From the NCBI GenBank assembly GCA_016870365.1, contig VGBW01000001.1, forward strand, positions 124,001 to 188,000: a DNA stretch of 64,000 nt, in the 5' to 3' direction. Position numbers and translations under genes: made by a program. The notes under the pieces were generated by a model that ran no database searches, was not told the origin of the DNA, and saw nothing but the letters and a program-made list of their open reading frames with translations. The DNA is from Actinomycetota bacterium. Lineage in GTDB: Bacteria; Actinomycetota; Actinomycetes; Nanopelagicales; Nanopelagicaceae. Within the stretch, counting starts at the first letter, position 1; each line of letters starts with the position of its first letter. Of the stretch, positions 32,174 to 39,523 are shown one piece after another.

Positions 32174-34206
32174 ACAAGAATCCGTTCCTAACCAAATCAC
32201 CCCTTGCCTATGAGCTACCGCCATTTGCTGATATCGCTGAGTCTGACTATTTGCCAGCCTTCTATGCCGGGATGGATGAGCAGCTGGCTGAAGTTGAGAG
32301 GATAATTAATGAACCTGAAGTTACCTTTGAAAATACCTTGGTGGCCCTAGAGAGAAGTGGCCAGCTACTAAGTAGAGTAGCGGCGGTCTTCTATAACAAG
32401 TCCTCAAGCGATACCAATGAAGCAATAGATAAGATTGAAGCAGAGATTGCGCCCAAACTTGCTGCTCACTCAGATGAAATCAAACTAAACCAGAAACTAT
32501 TTGGCCGCATCAATCACCTCGTTCAGGCAGAGATAAGCCTCAATGGTGAAGATGCGTGGTTGCTAAGAAGATATCACCGTGACTTACTCCATGCCGGAGC
32601 AGGGCTATCAGAGGCAGAGCGGGAGGAAATCAAGACAATAAACGAGGAGTTATCCAAGCTACAGACTGAATTTAGTAAGAAGGTTCTAAGTGAGACAAAT
32701 GACTTGGCAGTATTTGTTGATGATCTCCAAGAGCTAGATGGTCTATCTGATAATCAGATAAAGGCCTGTAAGGCGGCAGCAGAGGCTCGGGGGATTTCGG
32801 ACAAATACATGATTGCTGCGGTTAATTTCACCGGGCATCCGCTTCTGCGTTCACTTAAGAATCGTGAATTAAGAAAAGAGATTATGCAAGCCTCACTTAG
32901 TAAAGGCCTTCGAGGTAATGATTTCGATACCAGGCAAGTTCTTTTGAAGATGGTTAAGTTAAGGGCTAAGAGAGCGGAGATTTTTGGCAAATCAAGTCAT
33001 GCTCAGTATTCACTATCGGAGCAAACAGCAGGAAGTCCGGAGAATGTTCACGCGATGCTTAAGAAAATCGCTCCAGCTGCCCTTGCCAACGCCAAAGCTG
33101 AGGGCAGAGAAATTGAGCGCCTAGCCAAACTGGATGGCATTGAAAAACTAGAGAGCTGGGATTGGGACTACTACACCGAGAAGGTAAGAGCCGAGAAGTA
33201 CGATCTTGATACCGCTTTGATGAAGCCCTACTTCGAATTAGAGAGCGTCTTATTTAATGGAGTCTTTTTTGCTGCAAGTAAGCTCTATGGAATGAGTTTT
33301 AAGGAGCGCCCAGACTTGATCACTTATCATCCAGAGGCCAGAGCCTTTGAAGTTTTTAGAGAGGACGGCTCAAAGATTGGGTTGTATATAGCTGATTTCT
33401 ACACCAGAGATTCCAAGCGAGGAGGAGCTTGGATGAACTCCCTAGTAAAACAGAGCCACCTACTTAATCAGTTGCCGGTTGTAGTCAATAATCTCAATAT
33501 TCCTAAACCTCCAAAATGTGAGGTAACTCTGCTCTCCTTTGATGAGACCACCACATTATTTCATGAATTTGGCCATGCCATTCATGGACTCTTGTCTGAT
33601 GTGAAATACCCAAGGTTTTCTGGCACTGCAGTGCAACGCGACTTCGTGGAATTTCCCTCCCAGGTCAATGAGATGTGGATACTTGATCCAGAAGTCGTTG
33701 ATAACTACGCCCGCCATTATGAAACCGGAGAGCGGCTACCCCAAGCTTGGATAGATAAACTCAATGAATCATCAACTTTCAATGAAGGACATGCCACAAC
33801 CAGCTATATGGCAGCAGCAATTCTTGATCTTGCTTGGCACTCTTTATCCTCAAATGAAGTCATCCCTGATGTTGAAAAGTTTGAAGAGCAAGCAATAGCA
33901 GAGTATGGCCTTTCCTACCACTGTGTTCCTACTAGATACCGCTCCACTTACTTCTCACATATATTTGGCGGGGAATATTCTGCTGGGTATTACGGCTATA
34001 TCTGGGCTGAAGTCTTTGATGCCGATACTGGAGAGTGGTTTAAAGAAAATGATGGTCTAAACAGAGAGAATGGAGACCACCTTAGAAAAACTCTAATGAG
34101 TCAAGGAGGTTCTCTTGATTCACTGGAGATGTTTAGAAATTTTAGAGGCAGAGATGCGGTGATTGAGCCGCTATTGAAACGACGAGGCTTAATAAGCAAT
34201 GCTTGA
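32170..34206 (+). CDS. M3 family oligopeptidase (peptidyl-dipeptidase Dcp-like)
   Basis: A 678-residue zinc metallopeptidase with HEFGHAIHG (first His about 465) and the downstream glutamate region ESSTFNEGHATTSYMAAAILD. The N-terminal two-thirds is helical, as in thimet/Dcp enzymes that cleave cytoplasmic oligopeptides. Normal Dcp length suggests it is intact. It is coupled at both ends: 4-bp overlap with the hydrolase and 8-bp overlap with uppP. Confidence 0.94.
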   Translation: MNKNPFLTKSPLAYELPPFADIAESDYLPAFYAGMDEQLAEVERIINEPEVTFENTLVALERSGQLLSRVAAVFYNKSSSDTNEAIDKIEAEIAPKLAAHSDEIKLNQKLFGRINHLVQAEISLNGEDAWLLRRYHRDLLHAGAGLSEAEREEIKTINEELSKLQTEFSKKVLSETNDLAVFVDDLQELDGLSDNQIKACKAAAEARGISDKYMIAAVNFTGHPLLRSLKNRELRKEIMQASLSKGLRGNDFDTRQVLLKMVKLRAKRAEIFGKSSHAQYSLSEQTAGSPENVHAMLKKIAPAALANAKAEGREIERLAKLDGIEKLESWDWDYYTEKVRAEKYDLDTALMKPYFELESVLFNGVFFAASKLYGMSFKERPDLITYHPEARAFEVFREDGSKIGLYIADFYTRDSKRGGAWMNSLVKQSHLLNQLPVVVNNLNIPKPPKCEVTLLSFDETTTLFHEFGHAIHGLLSDVKYPRFSGTAVQRDFVEFPSQVNEMWILDPEVVDNYARHYETGERLPQAWIDKLNESSTFNEGHATTSYMAAAILDLAWHSLSSNEVIPDVEKFEEQAIAEYGLSYHCVPTRYRSTYFSHIFGGEYSAGYYGYIWAEVFDADTGEWFKENDGLNRENGDHLRKTLMSQGGSLDSLEMFRNFRGRDAVIEPLLKRRGLISNA

Positions 34207-35029
34207 GGCAATATTTCTAGGAATCATTCAGGGCTTAACTGAGTTTCTACCTATTTCATCTAGCGCCCATATCCGTATTCTCGGCGAATTCTTGCCATCA
34301 GCTCAAGATCCTGGGGCAACTTTTACAGCAATAATGCAGATAGGGACTGAGCTGGCAGTACTGTTCTACTTTAGAGCCGATATTGCAAGGCTCATCTCTG
34401 CATCGTTCAAGTGGGCTACAAGGCGAAAAGATTTGCTTGGCCCAGAGCAATCAGATGCCCGTCTTTCAGGGCTAATACTTATTGGTTCTCTTCCCATCTT
34501 TCTTCTTGGCTACTTTGGGCAGGAATACATTCGCCAGAGTTTTCGCTCACTTTACCTAGTTGCCTTTACGCTTATCGCCTTTGGCCTCCTTCTTGGTCTA
34601 ATTGATCTCTACGGCAAGAAGATAAAGGATCTGGAGAGTCTGGAAGTTAAAGATGGTCTGGCTTATGGAATTGCGCAATCACTTGCTCTAATTCCAGGTG
34701 TCTCTCGCTCCGGGGCTACAATTGCTATGGGAAGAGCTCTGGGTTATAGGCGAGAAGCTGCTCTTCGCTACTCCTTTTTGTTAGCGATTCCAGCAGTTCT
34801 TGGAAGCGGATCCTTTGAGCTTTTCAACTCACTTTCTAGACCGCTGAATGCCTTTTCGCTTGCAGAAACTTTAGTTGCCACGCTAACGGCCTTGGTAATT
34901 GGATACCTAGTTATCTCCTGGGTTATGAAATATGTTGAAACCAAGAGCTTCATGCCTTTTGTAATCTATCGAATATTTCTTGGAACGCTTCTACTAATAC
35001 TTTTATTTACAGGGGTGATTACCGCTTAA
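34199..35029 (+). CDS. uppP: Undecaprenyl-diphosphate phosphatase
   Basis: A 276-residue membrane phosphatase that recycles the lipid carrier for peptidoglycan. The two catalytic motifs are GLTEFLPISSSAH (Glu15, Ser-rich) and PGVSRSGATIAMG with its arginine. About eight hydrophobic segments are visible. It is the last gene of the hydrolase-M3-uppP operon and overlaps the convergent zinc-ribbon gene by 4 bp. Confidence 0.95.
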   Translation: MLEAIFLGIIQGLTEFLPISSSAHIRILGEFLPSAQDPGATFTAIMQIGTELAVLFYFRADIARLISASFKWATRRKDLLGPEQSDARLSGLILIGSLPIFLLGYFGQEYIRQSFRSLYLVAFTLIAFGLLLGLIDLYGKKIKDLESLEVKDGLAYGIAQSLALIPGVSRSGATIAMGRALGYRREAALRYSFLLAIPAVLGSGSFELFNSLSRPLNAFSLAETLVATLTALVIGYLVISWVMKYVETKSFMPFVIYRIFLGTLLLILLFTGVITA

Positions 35030-35211
35030 GCGCCTGCAGGCTCGCTGGATTTTGTTAAATCAATCGATACTCTAGGGCTACTAGGCAATGGGCAAGGAGC
35101 TCCATCGCAACAATTGGTCTTCAAATGGCAATGCGGGCAGAGCCATCTAGTTGCTATCGGGTCATAGGGGCGCAAGCAGAAATCACAAGGCATCTGGTTA
35201 TTGGCACTCAT
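35026..35211 (-). CDS. Small zinc-ribbon protein (61 aa)
   Basis: A 61-residue protein with two metal-binding pairs (CDFC and CPHC, spaced by a WL-containing strand) and a following HLKTNCCDGAPC. It could bind one or two zincs. The length, the clean TATTCT-N6-ATG leaderless promoter on the minus strand, and the ordered cysteines argue that it is real. I recall similar small CCDGAP proteins in actinobacteria, but the function is unknown. It lies just downstream of where tRNA-Val would have ended before the island inserted. Confidence 0.68.
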   Translation of the reverse strand: MSANNQMPCDFCLRPYDPIATRWLCPHCHLKTNCCDGAPCPLPSSPRVSIDLTKSSEPAGA

Positions 35212-35244
35212 GAGTGAAGAATAGGTTCAGCCTCCTTAAAGTGG

Positions 35245-35286
35245 TGGACGATACTGGGATCGAACCAGTGGCCCCTTCCATGTCAA
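35245..35286 (+). repeat. Left attachment-like repeat (tRNA-Val 3' fragment)
   Basis: Forty-two bases match the intact tRNA-Val gene from its discriminator base through the T arm and variable region into the 3' side of the anticodon arm, with a single G/A difference. Identity stops abruptly at TGTCAA. The 5' half of the tRNA is missing, so it is not a functional tRNA. Confidence 0.85.
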
Positions 35287-35635
35287 TACTTTGTTTATGT
35301 AGTTTTAACTTCGTCCTTCACTTTGTTCAATTTGGCTACATATCCTGATTTCACACACTTGGTGCAGTATGGGTCAATCAGTTCTGTAGGGATACATAGG
35401 TTTATGTATTACCTCGGAATCTAGCATGGGGGAGTGACAGGTTAGCGAAGGTAAGGTTTGGGTAGTGACATCTGCTATAGTTCGATTTAGCACCAAGACC
35501 TCGTCGCTTCACGCGGCGAGGTTGTGTCCGTGAGCGCCGAAGTGCATTTCTTATTCCGAATCCATTCTGTTAACAAGTAGAAAAAACGTTTCTCAGACGT
35601 ATGTATACGATACTGTGCTGCGATAGCCTTCATAC
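35287..35635. other. Island left end, no intact gene
   Basis: No complete gene is visible in these 349 bp. On the minus strand, 35295-35408 holds a stop-bounded frame of 37 codons without a start, containing IDPYCTKCVKSGYV, which could be the tail of a zinc-binding protein (weak). A hairpin with 9-bp arms (CCTCGTCGC / GCGGCGAGG, one G-T pair) lies at 35499-35521. The last 12 bp are the predicted leaderless promoter of the next gene: TAGCCT, then 6 nt, then ATG at 35636. Confidence 0.4.
35499..35521 (+). other. Stem-loop in island left end
   Basis: CCTCGTCGC, a 5-nt loop and GCGGCGAGG form a strong 9-bp stem with one wobble. No U-tract follows on either strand, so a terminator is unlikely. 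It could belong to a small RNA or a recombination site. Confidence 0.4.
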
Positions 35636-36859
35636 ATGAAGCGGCTTTTTGCACTTCTATCATTGATGACAATGGTAATGGTGGCTCCTAAAGCAATATC
35701 AGATCCTGCCGATCTTGCTCAAAAGGGACCTTATGACGCGACTTTGATTGGCGAGAAGATTCTTTACCCATCACTATTCGGGGTCTCTGCGGGATTACCA
35801 GTTGCTGACGTAACCGGAATGCAATTATCAAACGGCAAACTCCGCGCCTATGTCTTCGCTCAAAACAAAGGTATTGAAATCGCAGAATCTAGCGACGGTA
35901 AGACTTTTACGCGAGTAGGAAATGCATTTGGTGGGGACAAAGGTTATGGAATGCCTCATGTTGTGAAATTGAGTGATGGAAGAGTTCGGATGTACAACAT
36001 GATTAGCAAAGGCGTAGCGTGTACAATCTCCACAGACGGATTAACTTTCACACTTGAGAAGGAGCTGTGTATTGATGCTCGAGATTATCCGTTGGCGCCA
36101 AATGGACTTACTGGTGTCTCGATTGTAAAACTCAAGGATGGTACATATCGTGCATATTTCTCTGATATGGTTAAAGCGGGTACGGGTCCAGATCCTCATA
36201 ATGTCTTCTCTGCGACTTCGAGTGATCTGGTTAATTGGAAAGCAGATTCCGGAGTTCGGATCGGTCCAAACGGAACCACATTGACTCGAAGCGCAGAACA
36301 TCCTGGGGCTATTGCGCACGAAGATGGAACAGTCACGCTTTTTTACTATGACAATTGCGCAAAGGCTACAAGAGATCCGGCAGGTAAAGATTCATTTCTT
36401 CCGTCTGGCTGGTACTGCGATCCACGAACTCAGGGGCTTTGGTATGCAACCAGCACCGATAATGGTTTGACATTTACTACGGAAGAGATGATTACTTTCC
36501 CAGCACTATTTCCTAGAGGTTTTGGAAATGATGCAAATGTCTTCTTGGACAAAGACGGGAATTTGGTTTTGTGGGCCGGTGGGTTCGATCCTTCATTGGG
36601 TGGATACATCGGAGCATTTAAACTAACTAAGGCCACAAGAGTGGTTGCTCCTTCACCAACTCCATCACCGGTTCCAGTTCCGGCACCTGTTCCGGCACCA
36701 GTTCCGGCACCGGTTCCGGCACCGGTTCCAGCACCAACTCCAACTCCAACGAAAGTTGCGGTTGCACAGAAGTCCACCATTACGTGCATTAAAGGCAAAA
36801 CCGTCAAGAAAGTAACTGCGGTCAAGCCCAAATGCCCTGCGGGCTACAAGAAGAAATAA
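35636..36859 (+). CDS. Secreted beta-propeller-like (glycosidase-fold) protein with Pro-rich stalk and CPAGYKKK C-terminus
   Basis: 407 residues. A signal peptide (about 1-22, LFALLSLMTMVMVAPKAIS) precedes a domain of repeated sialidase/GH43-like blades (AESSDGKTFTRVG, ISTDGLTFTLE, ATSSDLVNWKADSG, ATSTDNGLTFTTEEM). No catalytic residues can be assigned safely. A VPAP repeat linker (about 343-365) and a 28-residue basic tail follow, with Cys384 and Cys400 and ending CPAGYKKK. The tail looks like a surface-attachment or sorting domain. It is predicted leaderless (TAGCCT-N6-ATG). Likely role: binding or processing a surface or dissolved glycan. Confidence 0.72.
   Translation: MKRLFALLSLMTMVMVAPKAISDPADLAQKGPYDATLIGEKILYPSLFGVSAGLPVADVTGMQLSNGKLRAYVFAQNKGIEIAESSDGKTFTRVGNAFGGDKGYGMPHVVKLSDGRVRMYNMISKGVACTISTDGLTFTLEKELCIDARDYPLAPNGLTGVSIVKLKDGTYRAYFSDMVKAGTGPDPHNVFSATSSDLVNWKADSGVRIGPNGTTLTRSAEHPGAIAHEDGTVTLFYYDNCAKATRDPAGKDSFLPSGWYCDPRTQGLWYATSTDNGLTFTTEEMITFPALFPRGFGNDANVFLDKDGNLVLWAGGFDPSLGGYIGAFKLTKATRVVAPSPTPSPVPVPAPVPAPVPAPVPAPVPAPTPTPTKVAVAQKSTITCIKGKTVKKVTAVKPKCPAGYKKK
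36669..36738 (+). repeat. 12-bp tandem repeats encoding PVPA
   Basis: About five degenerate copies of a 12-bp unit such as CCGGTTCCGGCA encode the PVPA stalk of the secreted protein. Gain or loss of a unit keeps the frame, so stalk length can vary between strains. Confidence 0.75.
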
Positions 36860-36876
36860 ACGCTAAGGGACAAGAA

Positions 36877-36975
36877 TCAGCGACTACTAGACCCTCCTTC
36901 TTCCTCCCAAACTAGATCAATCCCAAGGGATCTAGCGAAACCCACTAGATCCTCTGAAGGTTGCCCTGGAAGCAT
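36877..36975 (-). pseudogene. C-terminal fragment of an unidentified gene
   Basis: On the minus strand a protein-like tail is open up to the junction with the nuoB fragment and ends at TGA (36879-36877). It includes [20 protein letters not shown] and then DLVWEEEGG. No start codon or N-terminal part exists because the sequence switches to nuoB on the other strand. I cannot identify the parent gene. Confidence 0.4.
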
Positions 36976-37244
36976 GACCAGATGCTCGCTCCCAAGTGGG
37001 TTCTATCGATGGGAGCTTGCGCCTCATCTGGTGGCATGTTCAATAATTATGCAATCGTCCAAGGCGTTGATCACATAATTCCTGTTGATATTTACCTGCC
37101 AGGCTGCCCACCAAGGCCTGAGATGCTGATGGATGCAATTTTGAAGCTGCATGAGCAGATTGGTAATGAAAAACTCGGTGTCAACCGGAAAAGATAGTTA
37201 AGGAAGTTGAAGCTTCAGCAATTGCTGCTACCCCAATTCACCAG
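36976..37244 (+). pseudogene. nuoB: NADH-quinone oxidoreductase subunit B fragment, frameshifted
   Basis: The translation matches the C-terminal half of Nuo[21 protein letters not shown], then [20 protein letters not shown], including two of the N2 cluster cysteines. The N-terminal half with the paired cysteines is absent. Near 37185 one base disrupts the frame; the homology resumes in another frame as [16 protein letters not shown]. It then stops at a junction with the cupin fragment. This is a nonfunctional copy, and a complete nuo operon must exist elsewhere if complex I is used. Confidence 0.85.
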
Positions 37245-37465
37245 GTCCCCGTCTTTGGATAGCAGGGACGGGAGACTCTATTAACTTTTCCATTGAGAGT
37301 GACTTGACCAGTGCCATCGGCGATGTACCAATGCTCACTTCTTTTGCTATGCCTTTGATAGGGCAGTCGCTTGCCAGGTGGGACGTGAATGGATTTGACC
37401 TTGTAGTTAGCCGCCTCCTGGAATACCTCATAACGACCCCATGGGCGATCAGATTTTTCTAGCAT
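37238..37465 (-). pseudogene. Truncated cupin-type (type II) mannose-6-phosphate isomerase
   Basis: From an ATG at 37465, about 60 residues match the cupin domain of mannose-6-phosphate isomerase/GMP proteins: RPWGRYEVFQEAANYKVKSI, then PYQRHSKRSEHWYIADGTGQ. The match stops at about 37286, followed by 15 unrelated residues and a stop. About half the cupin barrel is missing. It keeps a leaderless promoter (TAAAGT, 6 nt before ATG), so it may still be transcribed. It diverges from an intact class I isomerase. Confidence 0.7.
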
Positions 37466-37494
37466 GAAAGAACTTTAATCCTTAAACTACATAG
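37466..37494. promoter_or_regulatory. Divergent leaderless promoters of the two isomerase reading frames
   Basis: The 29-bp gap has minus-strand TAAAGT (37477-37472), 6 nt before the ATG at 37465. It also has plus-strand TAAACT (37483-37488), 6 nt before the GTG at 37495. Confidence 0.5.
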
Positions 37495-38511
37495 GTGAGT
37501 AAGATTTCTGCCAAACCCACCAAATTACCTTCAAATCAATTTGATCACTTTTATAAGGGCGGGTATCGGATAGGAAAGTTTCGAAATGGTCCAGGTGGTC
37601 CCATGCGCCCAGAGGAGTGGATAGGTTCAACTACCACCCGGTTTGGTGAAGCGGTAAATGGGCTTTCAAAATTACCAACAGGCAAACTTCTAAAGGACGA
37701 GATTGATTCAGATCCTTCATCATGGCTTGGACAAAAGCACTTTGAAAAATTTGGTACATCAACTGAGGTTTTAGTTAAACTTTTGGATCCTGATCAAAGA
37801 TTGCCAGTTCATTACCACCCAGATAAGAAGTTTGCGAAGGAAAAACTCCAACTTAACCATGGCAAGACAGAGGCGTGGATTGTCTTGGATGCACCCGATG
37901 GGGCTCGTGTTGGCGTTGGCTTCAAGGAATCTATGAAGAAAAATCAAGTTGCCCAGCTAGTAAAAGATCATGATTCAACTGGCCTGCTTAACTCATTAGA
38001 GTTTAAGAATGTTAAGGCAGGTGATGCAGTATTCGTGCCCGCTGGAGTGCCACATGCTATTGAGGCTGGAATTTTTGTACTCGAACTACAAGAGCCAACC
38101 GATCTTTCAATCTTATTGGAATGGGATGGATTTGCAGTCGATGGTGATAAAGATGGACATTTAGATCTTGGTTTTGACATCGCCTTAGATGCTCTGCGAT
38201 TAGATCCCTTGTCACAACAGCAGCGACTACAGATTGTAAGTCGGTTTGAACAAAACGAGGCAGCCTCACACCAAATCTTTAATTCAATAGCAGATAATTT
38301 TTTTAGGGCAGATTATTTAACTGGAGATAGTAAAAAGGTGGAGCCTGGATTTGGAATATTTCTTGTTCTAACTGGTGATGGAGTTATGAGCTTTGGAAAT
38401 AGCGAAAAACTATCTGTTCGAATTGGAGATGCAGTCGTGATTCCATATACAGCAGGCGGTTTTTCAATTGAAAACTGTGCTGGGATTCTCTCACGCCCAC
38501 CTCAGGCTTAA
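37495..38511 (+). CDS. Class I mannose-6-phosphate isomerase
   Basis: A 338-residue zinc isomerase interconverting mannose-6-phosphate and fructose-6-phosphate. GPMRPEEWIGSTTTRFG and the metal site LPVHYHPD (two His), the Glu of NHGKTEAWIV and the His of AGVPHAIEAG are all present. A second small beta domain forms the C-terminus. The gene looks intact and starts with GTG under a leaderless promoter. Within the island it may feed GDP-mannose into surface glycan synthesis, though no glycosyltransferase is carried. Confidence 0.85.
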   Translation: MSKISAKPTKLPSNQFDHFYKGGYRIGKFRNGPGGPMRPEEWIGSTTTRFGEAVNGLSKLPTGKLLKDEIDSDPSSWLGQKHFEKFGTSTEVLVKLLDPDQRLPVHYHPDKKFAKEKLQLNHGKTEAWIVLDAPDGARVGVGFKESMKKNQVAQLVKDHDSTGLLNSLEFKNVKAGDAVFVPAGVPHAIEAGIFVLELQEPTDLSILLEWDGFAVDGDKDGHLDLGFDIALDALRLDPLSQQQRLQIVSRFEQNEAASHQIFNSIADNFFRADYLTGDSKKVEPGFGIFLVLTGDGVMSFGNSEKLSVRIGDAVVIPYTAGGFSIENCAGILSRPPQA

Positions 38512-38522
38512 ATTATTGTTAG

Positions 38523-38593
38523 AGGTCGGAACGGAATTTGAACCCGTGTAGAGGGATTTGCAGTCCCGAGCCTCGCTTCTCGGCCATCCGACC
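38523..38593 (-). tRNA. Second tRNA-Cys (GCA), island copy
   Basis: A 71-nt cloverleaf on the minus strand. The acceptor is GGTCGGA paired with TCCGACC, discriminator T, anticodon loop CTGCAAA, T loop TTCAAAT. The body is nearly identical to the chromosomal tRNA-Cys at 39346-39416, but the acceptor stem differs with compensating changes on both sides. The anticodon stem has one C-T mismatch at its top. CCA is not encoded. It may be functional; compensation argues against a decayed copy. Confidence 0.82.
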
Positions 38594-38905
38594 GTGCTGG
38601 TTGCTAAATTCAATTTACTGCTAAGCGATTGGTACAGCATGAGGACGGAAATATTCTGAGACTTGGAGATATTCGTCCTAATACATCTACGCCTTTTGTA
38701 ACCGTCCTAGAAGATCCAAGGCAGCCTCCTTAAGGTCCTCCGGGCTTGAGCGACTACGACGTGGGACTGGTTCGGCAACTATTCGGAGAGGGCACTTGAC
38801 CTTCATCTTGGAAAACGAGTTAGCAACAAAAAGCTGAAGCAAAGGCAAGTCTTCGCTAAAGGTTATGGGCAAGAATCCCAAGTGTCTAAAGGGATATAAA
38901 AAGAA
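38594..38905. other. Island stretch without an intact gene
   Basis: No complete gene is supported. The 3' part (38838-38909) is the decayed C-terminal domain listed separately. A 64-codon minus-strand frame (38687-38881), ending SSPEDLKEAALDLLGRLQ, is antisense to that remnant for part of its length and is not convincing, although its last 38 residues read like a protein tail. Confidence 0.35.
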
Positions 38906-38909
38906 ATGA
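38838..38909 (+). pseudogene. Decayed CxxGYKKK C-terminal domain
   Basis: The frame ends in PKCLKGYKKK and, over about 22 codons, parallels the tail of the 35636-36859 protein (KGKSSLKV.. against KGKTVKKV.., then PKC and GYKKK in both). A TGA at 38835-38837 sits where that protein has its first tail cysteine. No upstream coding region remains. This is the remnant of a second protein with the same domain. Confidence 0.65.
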
Positions 38910-39178
38910 AGAAGTTCCTCGCGATATTTGTGACCATTTTGATGGTTGGTTCACATGTGGCAATTGCAGAAATTAAGAATTTCTTCTACAGATTTTCATT
39001 GACTCAAGCACAAGTAAAAGTGGGCGGCAATGATAGTTTTTTTTCAGGCTCTGACATTCTCTACATGATTCTGTCCTTTCTGATTCGGTTCAGATCGGCT
39101 AAAACCACACATACGAGTGCAAACAAGGTATGGGTCATATGGTTCGGATGGACAACACTTCCAAACACCTACGAATGA
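38906..39178 (+). CDS. Short exported open frame, probably truncated gene
   Basis: A 90-codon frame starting with a convincing signal peptide (KKFLAIFVTILMVGSHVAIA, then cleavage before Glu). The ATG overlaps the TGA of the decayed C-terminal domain (ATGA), as if the two were consecutive genes of secreted proteins. After about residue 45 the sequence has no recognisable domain, and it ends just before tRNA-Val. It is probably the 5' end of a secreted-protein gene cut by the island boundary. Confidence 0.4.
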   Translation: MKKFLAIFVTILMVGSHVAIAEIKNFFYRFSLTQAQVKVGGNDSFFSGSDILYMILSFLIRFRSAKTTHTSANKVWVIWFGWTTLPNTYE

Positions 39179-39189
39179 GGAAGTAGTGT

Positions 39190-39212
39190 TCGTTTTGCGA
39201 ACTTTTCTTCCA
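39190..39212 (+). terminator. Possible weak terminator next to tRNA-Val
   Basis: GTTCG, a TTTTG loop and CGAAC are followed by TTTTCTT on the plus strand. The stem is only 5 bp. It could end transcription coming from the island before the tRNA genes. Confidence 0.35.
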
Positions 39213-39228
39213 TTTTGTGCGTAGAGAG

Positions 39229-39270
39229 TGGACGATACTGGGATCGAACCAGTGACCCCTTCCATGTCAA
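39229..39270 (+). repeat. Right attachment-like repeat within tRNA-Val
   Basis: The copy inside the intact tRNA-Val gene, in the same orientation as 35245-35286. Excision by recombination between the two would restore a single tRNA and release about 4 kb. Confidence 0.8.
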
Positions 39271-39300
39271 GGAAGTGCGCTACCGCTGCGCTAATCGTCC
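39229..39300 (-). tRNA. tRNA-Val (GAC)
   Basis: A 72-nt cloverleaf on the minus strand: acceptor GGACGAT/ATCGTCC, anticodon loop TTGACAT (GAC), T loop TTCGATC, discriminator A, no encoded CCA. It is the third gene of a Gly-Cys-Val cluster transcribed leftward, and its 3' end is the island attachment site. Confidence 0.95.
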
Positions 39301-39345
39301 GGGGTGAGAACTATACATTTACGAAAATGAACATGTCCGAAATGG

Positions 39346-39416
39346 AGGTGGAGACGGGATTTGAACCCGTGTAGCGGGATTTGCAGTCCCGAGCCTCGCC
39401 TCTCGGCCACTCCACC
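39346..39416 (-). tRNA. tRNA-Cys (GCA)
   Basis: A 71-nt cloverleaf on the minus strand: acceptor GGTGGAG/CTCCACC, anticodon loop CTGCAAA (GCA) with a full 5-bp stem, T arm ACGGG/CCCGT, discriminator T as expected for Cys. CCA is not encoded. It is the middle gene of the Gly-Cys-Val cluster. Confidence 0.95.
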
Positions 39417-39450
39417 AAAACTATTGAGTTGAATATCTTCCAAAAAAGAG

Positions 39451-39523
39451 AGCGGACGACGGGGGTCGAACCCGCGACCTGAACCTTGGCAAGGTTCCGC
39501 GCTACCAACTGCGCTACGTCCGC
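39451..39523 (-). tRNA. tRNA-Gly (GCC)
   Basis: A 73-nt cloverleaf on the minus strand: acceptor GCGGACG/CGTCCGC, anticodon loop TTGCCAA (GCC), T loop TTCGACC, discriminator T. It is the first gene of the tRNA cluster, so the cluster promoter should lie within about 39524-39600. Confidence 0.95.

Follow-up and report, generated by a model that had tools for sequence, protein, structure and literature searches.

The 64,000-nucleotide window analysed here, taken from a Nanopelagicaceae MAG (G000; 1.29 Mb in 25 contigs), contains at tRNA-Val(GAC) an island that is the scar of a site-specific element: its ends are conserved, it encodes no integrase, and the corresponding sites of relatives are variable or empty. 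We consider it likely, with a probability of roughly 0.66, that the island is a non-autonomous, att-flanked element belonging to a family of integrase-less Nanopelagicaceae cassettes, with its integrase presumably supplied in trans, and that it became a mosaic later.

The attachment site is an intact tRNA-Val(GAC) on the minus strand (39228–39300), detected with ARAGORN. Its 3' end is repeated 3.98 kb away at the far end of the island, where positions 35244–35286 (plus strand) match 39228–39270 over 43 bp with a single mismatch; no such repeat arose in shuffled sequences, and the copy had been given as 42 bp in the preliminary description. This distal att copy spans the tRNA from its 3' end up to the anticodon loop, and its core is identical to the putative attP of an IMG/VR phage contig (L036). 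Outside it lies the chromosomal flank, a small Zn-ribbon-like gene (35026–35211, minus strand) that follows bacA (34199–35029) and is kept beside it in the same-genus loci L047, L072, L054, L062, L012 and L049. On the other side, the native tRNA-Cys and tRNA-Gly (39343–39523, minus strand; ARAGORN) form a conserved flank towards the PGPGW gene and thrS. The island was described earlier as an AT-richer 4-kb segment; its GC content of 45.1%, compared with 47.5% for the window, is among the lowest 4–5% of 4-kb windows, a difference that is real but mild.

Comparison with relatives indicates that tRNA-Val is used repeatedly for integration and that what is found there varies. Two same-genus loci have an empty or near-empty site, with 34 bp between the tRNA and the Zn-ribbon gene in L049 and 29 bp between the tRNA and bacA in L065, and other same-genus relatives carry a kinase, a PhzF-like enzyme, a flavoprotein or a transporter permease at this position. 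Neither the same content in all relatives nor an unrelated tRNA pseudogene present in every strain, two outcomes contemplated in the preliminary description, was found. The survey covered 102 tRNA-Val loci, mostly from MAGs and each with at least 500 bp downstream, and in 14 rows the tRNA 3' end is repeated with at least 21 matching bases. Four rows were set aside (L043/L182, which are the same locus; L210 and L211, which are full-length duplications; and L059, a locus outside the family whose repeat is just 74 bp from its own tRNA). Nine of the ten remaining repeat-bearing loci are without an integrase and one (L105) has an integrase; further cases (L054, L066 and L159) are interrupted by contig ends.

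The DNA immediately inside the repeats is conserved as well. The class I distal end, a non-coding arm at 35287–35390 (plus strand) that begins with TACTTnnnTTATGTAGTTTTAACTT, is 87% identical over 110 bp to positions 1–109 of L066, a locus from another genus (G118), and the class I proximal end (39151–39227, plus strand) is 81% identical over 74 bp to L066 2853–2926, beside the tRNA-Val of that locus. The interior of L066 is unrelated to that of the window and encodes trypsin-like and metalloprotease-like secreted proteins, the latter without a Pfam match and assigned to its family by eye. Exact copies of the first 25 nt of the class I distal end occur in only 4 of the 296 family genomes, representing three genera and located in each case at a tRNA-Val att core; in a third genus, two genomes have this end, and in one of them it accompanies a lone secreted protease. 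A pattern match located downstream of tRNA-Leu in four genomes proved not to be the tRNA-Val end. The class I proximal end is confined to G000 and G118 among the 296 genomes, and both ends together are known from just two class I members. The motif TATGGGTCA is present in both arms of the window, distal and proximal, and in the distal arms of L066 and of L105, which bears an integrase; it has a background rate of 7e-6 per base, was picked after inspection, and is suggestive of a shared arm site.

A second type of end, class II (TAGTAGAAATTCCTACTTGGTTC), was detected in several genera. In the 296 genomes, every match to it with zero or one mismatch comes directly after a tRNA-Val 3'-end copy, and the matches with two mismatches lie within one recurrent coding context. 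At least seven class II cassettes are complete (G010, G014, G015, G024, G032, G093 and G119); these are 0.55–1.8 kb in length, and each contains a single gene and no integrase. Since G032 is IMCC26077, a complete single-contig genome, the cassettes are not only an effect of MAG assembly. Significant RNA structure was considered and discarded for four class II ends, none of which folded better than shuffled sequences (z −1.7 to +1.75).

No integrase was found among the island ORFs, in agreement with the preliminary description, and the search of these ORFs for transfer genes was also negative. The two complete tyrosine recombinases of the window genome resemble housekeeping XerC and XerD, an assignment based on neighbouring genes, and integrases of the tRNA-targeting type are represented in this genome only by two truncated remnants outside the island. 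Candidate integrases are present elsewhere. In the phage contig L036, a tyrosine integrase lies about 160 bp from an exact copy of the 43-nt core, and relatives of this integrase are encoded in 12 of the 296 genomes; they adjoin tRNA-Val(GAC) in three of these (G191, G219 and G173), and tRNA-Val(TAC) or tRNA-Lys in others. The integrase-bearing elements are about 5–8 kb long with distal repeats of 20–32 bp, and the att core is common to the small elements of three genomes and to L036. The integrase-bearing relatives at tRNA-Val yielded neither a relaxase nor a conjugation gene. The proximal end in the nearest relative of the window genome (G001) is nearly identical to that beside the G191 integrase. 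A search of viral contigs for class I ends, class II ends and the G191-type proximal end returned none of them; the att core alone was found, in L036.

These data bear on a rival reading in which the island is the fossil of a single autonomous element: a prophage or a small integrative element would have integrated once, had its integrase deleted and decayed since, with no mobilisation in trans. The visible decay of the window island, the truncated integrases of the same type elsewhere in the genome, and the known integrase-bearing elements at the same tRNA would all fit such a history. However, tiny complete one-gene cassettes with shared ends are found across genera with no integrase remnant, and one class II version of about 57 bp, the start of which is also present in G001, is near-identical in three genera and therefore too conserved for old fossils; we regard a fossil as unlikely. 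Action of an integrase in trans, as raised in the preliminary description, is plausible because one att core serves both the integrase-bearing elements and the phage contig, and the integrase-less cassettes share ends. Judged from the sequence comparisons, the island most likely owes its integration to an integrase acting in this way and was scrambled later; it may still be mobile.

The intact cargo next to the distal end is a secreted protein of 407 aa (35636–36859, plus strand) with a weak GH43/beta-propeller match and only weak partial matches to PDB entries. It has a secreted-type N-terminus, a Pro-rich linker and a basic, Cys-containing tail (KSTITCxKGK...KCPAGYKKK), and is probably an exoprotein. 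In G313, a clean one-gene case of 1.42 kb, the class I distal end accompanies a secreted trypsin-like protease that has this tail too. The earlier suggestion of an exoprotein locus is borne out by the intact cargo and by those relatives that share the end type. Towards the proximal end, a C-terminal tail remnant of a secreted protein (approximately 38836–38906, plus strand), which has an in-frame stop upstream and ends with KNPKCLKGYKKK before its stop codon, is followed by the truncated start of another secreted-protein gene (38906–39178, plus strand), whose N-terminus is signal-peptide-like and for which Pfam and PHROG searches gave no match. A source for 38690–38797 was sought in 41 genomes, and no relative was found. 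The preliminary description named four broken genes in the island, three of which (nuoB, cupin and the secreted-protein tail) were upheld. The fourth, a minus-strand tail at about 35290–35380, is probably not a gene, because this region is the conserved non-coding element end and the corresponding frame of L066, by inspection, soon runs into a stop.

The middle of the island contains a truncated cupin of the MannoseP_isomer family (37238–37465, minus strand), identified by a profile match and cut at its C-terminus, with homology to the genes of relatives beginning at about 37283. Beside it are an intact manA-like cupin isomerase (37495–38511, plus strand) and a degenerate second tRNA-Cys (38522–38593, minus strand; ARAGORN) carried with manA; this tRNA-Cys scores 49.9 bits compared with 62.5 bits for the native copy. 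The window manA groups in the tree with that of G116 (g2, another genus) with 100/98 support, and the two genomes share 87% identity in manA compared with 76% in thrS; the manA/tRNA-Cys block was therefore probably imported from another genus. Many relatives have the gene order tRNA-Val, cupin, manA, tRNA-Cys, tRNA-Gly, PGPGW gene, thrS. Because manA and the cupin are thus conserved neighbours of tRNA-Val in other genera, a surface-glycan cluster, which had been proposed for this locus, was rejected.

The foreign manA and tRNA-Cys, together with the homology offered by the flanking tRNAs, could also point to homologous recombination only, that is, uptake of DNA and crossover within the tRNA cluster and shared ends, with no site-specific recombinase. 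Such a process would not produce a truncated tRNA copy next to the Zn-ribbon gene, and the distal att copies, which reach no further than about the anticodon loop, pass into element-specific arms, as expected for site-specific integration in a tRNA 3' end. We consider recombination of this kind on its own improbable.

Between the intact cargo and the cupin lies a decayed 3' fragment of nuoB (36974–37266, plus strand; 293 bp), copied at 99% identity from the nuoB of this same genome. It matches that gene exactly over the first 215 bp, after which it has lost 1 bp and acquired a nonsense mutation. The location of this host piece, spliced between unrelated genes, supports the illegitimate joining envisaged earlier. 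The genome's real nuoB is located at the ends of contigs C3 and C14, which share an exact 127-bp overlap, and this raises the question of whether the MAG contig was misjoined via k-mers common to the nuoB and tRNA copies. Overlaps of exactly 127 bp are a usual feature of this assembly, being present at eight pairs of contig ends; the assembler therefore saw the nuoB repeat, which is best read as a resolved repeat rather than an artefact. An assembly error in the fragment itself is unlikely, as the window copy differs from the real gene by the deletion and substitutions, and an alternative pairing of the nuoB joins, which would split the nuo operon, is likewise unlikely. Moreover, an independent MAG has the two island ends together, and a misjoined contig is a very improbable origin for the island as a whole.

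The preferred reading, a non-autonomous element integrated in trans and later scrambled, may be set out as follows. The tyrosine integrase of a small element or phage would act in trans on the core and ends and so place cassettes at the tRNA, and the window copy would have turned into a mosaic after integration. The window order of att, GH43-like gene, gap, cupin, manA and tRNA-Cys appears collinear with a donor chromosome in which, on the basis of gene order, the island would be followed by tRNA-Val, cupin, manA and tRNA-Cys. The donor tRNA-Val and the end of the cupin were apparently lost, and the host nuoB fragment would fill the resulting gap. The donor segment would then adjoin the remnants of one older secreted-protein cassette, which keeps the proximal end at the native tRNA-Val. 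A broader possibility, which we advance only tentatively, is that tRNA-Val(GAC) serves as a family-wide platform for cassette exchange, in which integrase-less single-gene cassettes with a few standard ends would pass from genus to genus and borrow integrases from phages or small integrative elements, in an integron-like manner but with no integron integrase.

The island is CIME-like and of the additive-island type. CIMEs keep their att sites, lack recombination and transfer genes, and are mobilisable after accretion (PMC5704250, PMC7563491). The window island resembles them in being att-flanked, associated with a tRNA 3' end, decayed and accreting (PMC5704250, PMC7563491); the 43-bp core and conserved arms are retained at both ends as attL and attR, and its ORFs include no integration or transfer genes. 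It differs in that no ICE or IME parent with conjugation genes was identified here, and in that the units are mostly solitary and single-gene, with ends conserved across genera. Those ssrA islands of Dehalococcoides that lack an integration module have been suggested to be CIMEs and are similar in their short direct repeats of an RNA-gene 3' end, conserved neighbouring sequence and variable integration module, but they involve a serine recombinase and tmRNA, in contrast to the tyrosine integrases, tRNA-Val and smaller cargo of the present loci (PMC3146451). Cassettes at tRNAs with tell-tale repeats have been described in Ca. Actinomarinales and Methylophilaceae, and the accessible text of these reports does not describe conserved ends or candidate helper integrases (PMC7771536, PMC10872708). 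As in such additive flexible genomic islands, direct partial-tRNA repeats mark the tRNA site, and content varies among relatives, some of which have empty sites. Tycheposons are described as likewise being tRNA-bordered cargo elements of streamlined aquatic bacteria, but they have a tyrosine recombinase and measure 4–200 kb (PMC10872708), whereas the window island is bordered by a tRNA and encodes no recombinase. Integron cassettes and CALIN are also mostly one-gene units with no recombinase of their own, presumably served in trans (PMC11389934). The present cassettes differ from them in using a tRNA 3' end as their site and in having no integron integrase, the complete tyrosine recombinases of the window genome being the two Xer-like proteins; nor did the four class II ends that were folded show significant structure of the attC-hairpin kind.

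New here are standard ends that cross genera, the finding of such ends on cassettes of one gene, and the presence of candidate helper integrases at this tRNA. Nanopelagicales rank with the most abundant bacteria of fresh water, yet their genomes are very small, so that their means of gaining genes is an open question. The shared end sequences provide a concrete handle for tracking and testing the cassettes. If the proposed exchange is true, a tRNA dock with borrowed integrases would offer these bacteria a cheap route to exoproteins, transporters and enzymes without the cost of carrying mobility genes.

Integrase-bearing small elements of about 5–8 kb each were observed at four loci (L105, L110, L111 and L112), where the insertion sites are tRNA-Val(GAC), tRNA-Val(TAC) and tRNA-Lys and the distal repeats measure 20–32 bp. 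The cargo of L105 includes a DUF4379 protein, and other cargo proteins resemble methyltransferases. Elsewhere in the window genome lie two integrases of a kind that targets tRNA genes, both truncated (L101, contig C2, 1469–1744; L104, contig C7, 317–508), one of them near a tRNA-Arg(CCT). A tyrosine integrase together with an attP-like core, identical to the 3' end of the Nanopelagicaceae tRNA-Val, is found on the IMG/VR phage contig L036 (3738–4770), which probably represents a temperate phage infecting freshwater actinobacteria.

Other arrangements were also seen at tRNA-Val. In genomes G159 and G282 (L210 and L211), the tRNA-Val is duplicated as full-length, identical copies spaced 6.7 and 2.0 kb apart, and the complete genome G163 carries a 4.5-kb island (L234, 4615–9084) that is bounded by a 33-bp repeat and whose cargo looks like an entire sugar ABC-transporter operon with a regulator.

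The tail KSTIxCxKGKxxKKVxxxxPKCPxGYKKK forms the C-terminus of otherwise unrelated secreted proteins and lies outside every Pfam match reported in this analysis. Two of the three copies in the window genome are in the island (36743–36859 and 38836–38906), and further copies occur at L066, L160 and L238.

Several Nanopelagicaceae loci (L039, L043, L044, L046, L053, L054 and L066) come from MAGs whose record titles name Bifidobacterium breve or Candidatus Fonsibacter lacus; these are apparently misnamed or mixed bins.

Four genomes from three genera (L163, L169, L173 and L174) share an identical 25-nt sequence downstream of tRNA-Leu(TAA), and two contigs break directly after it; this downstream region is possibly another docking site.
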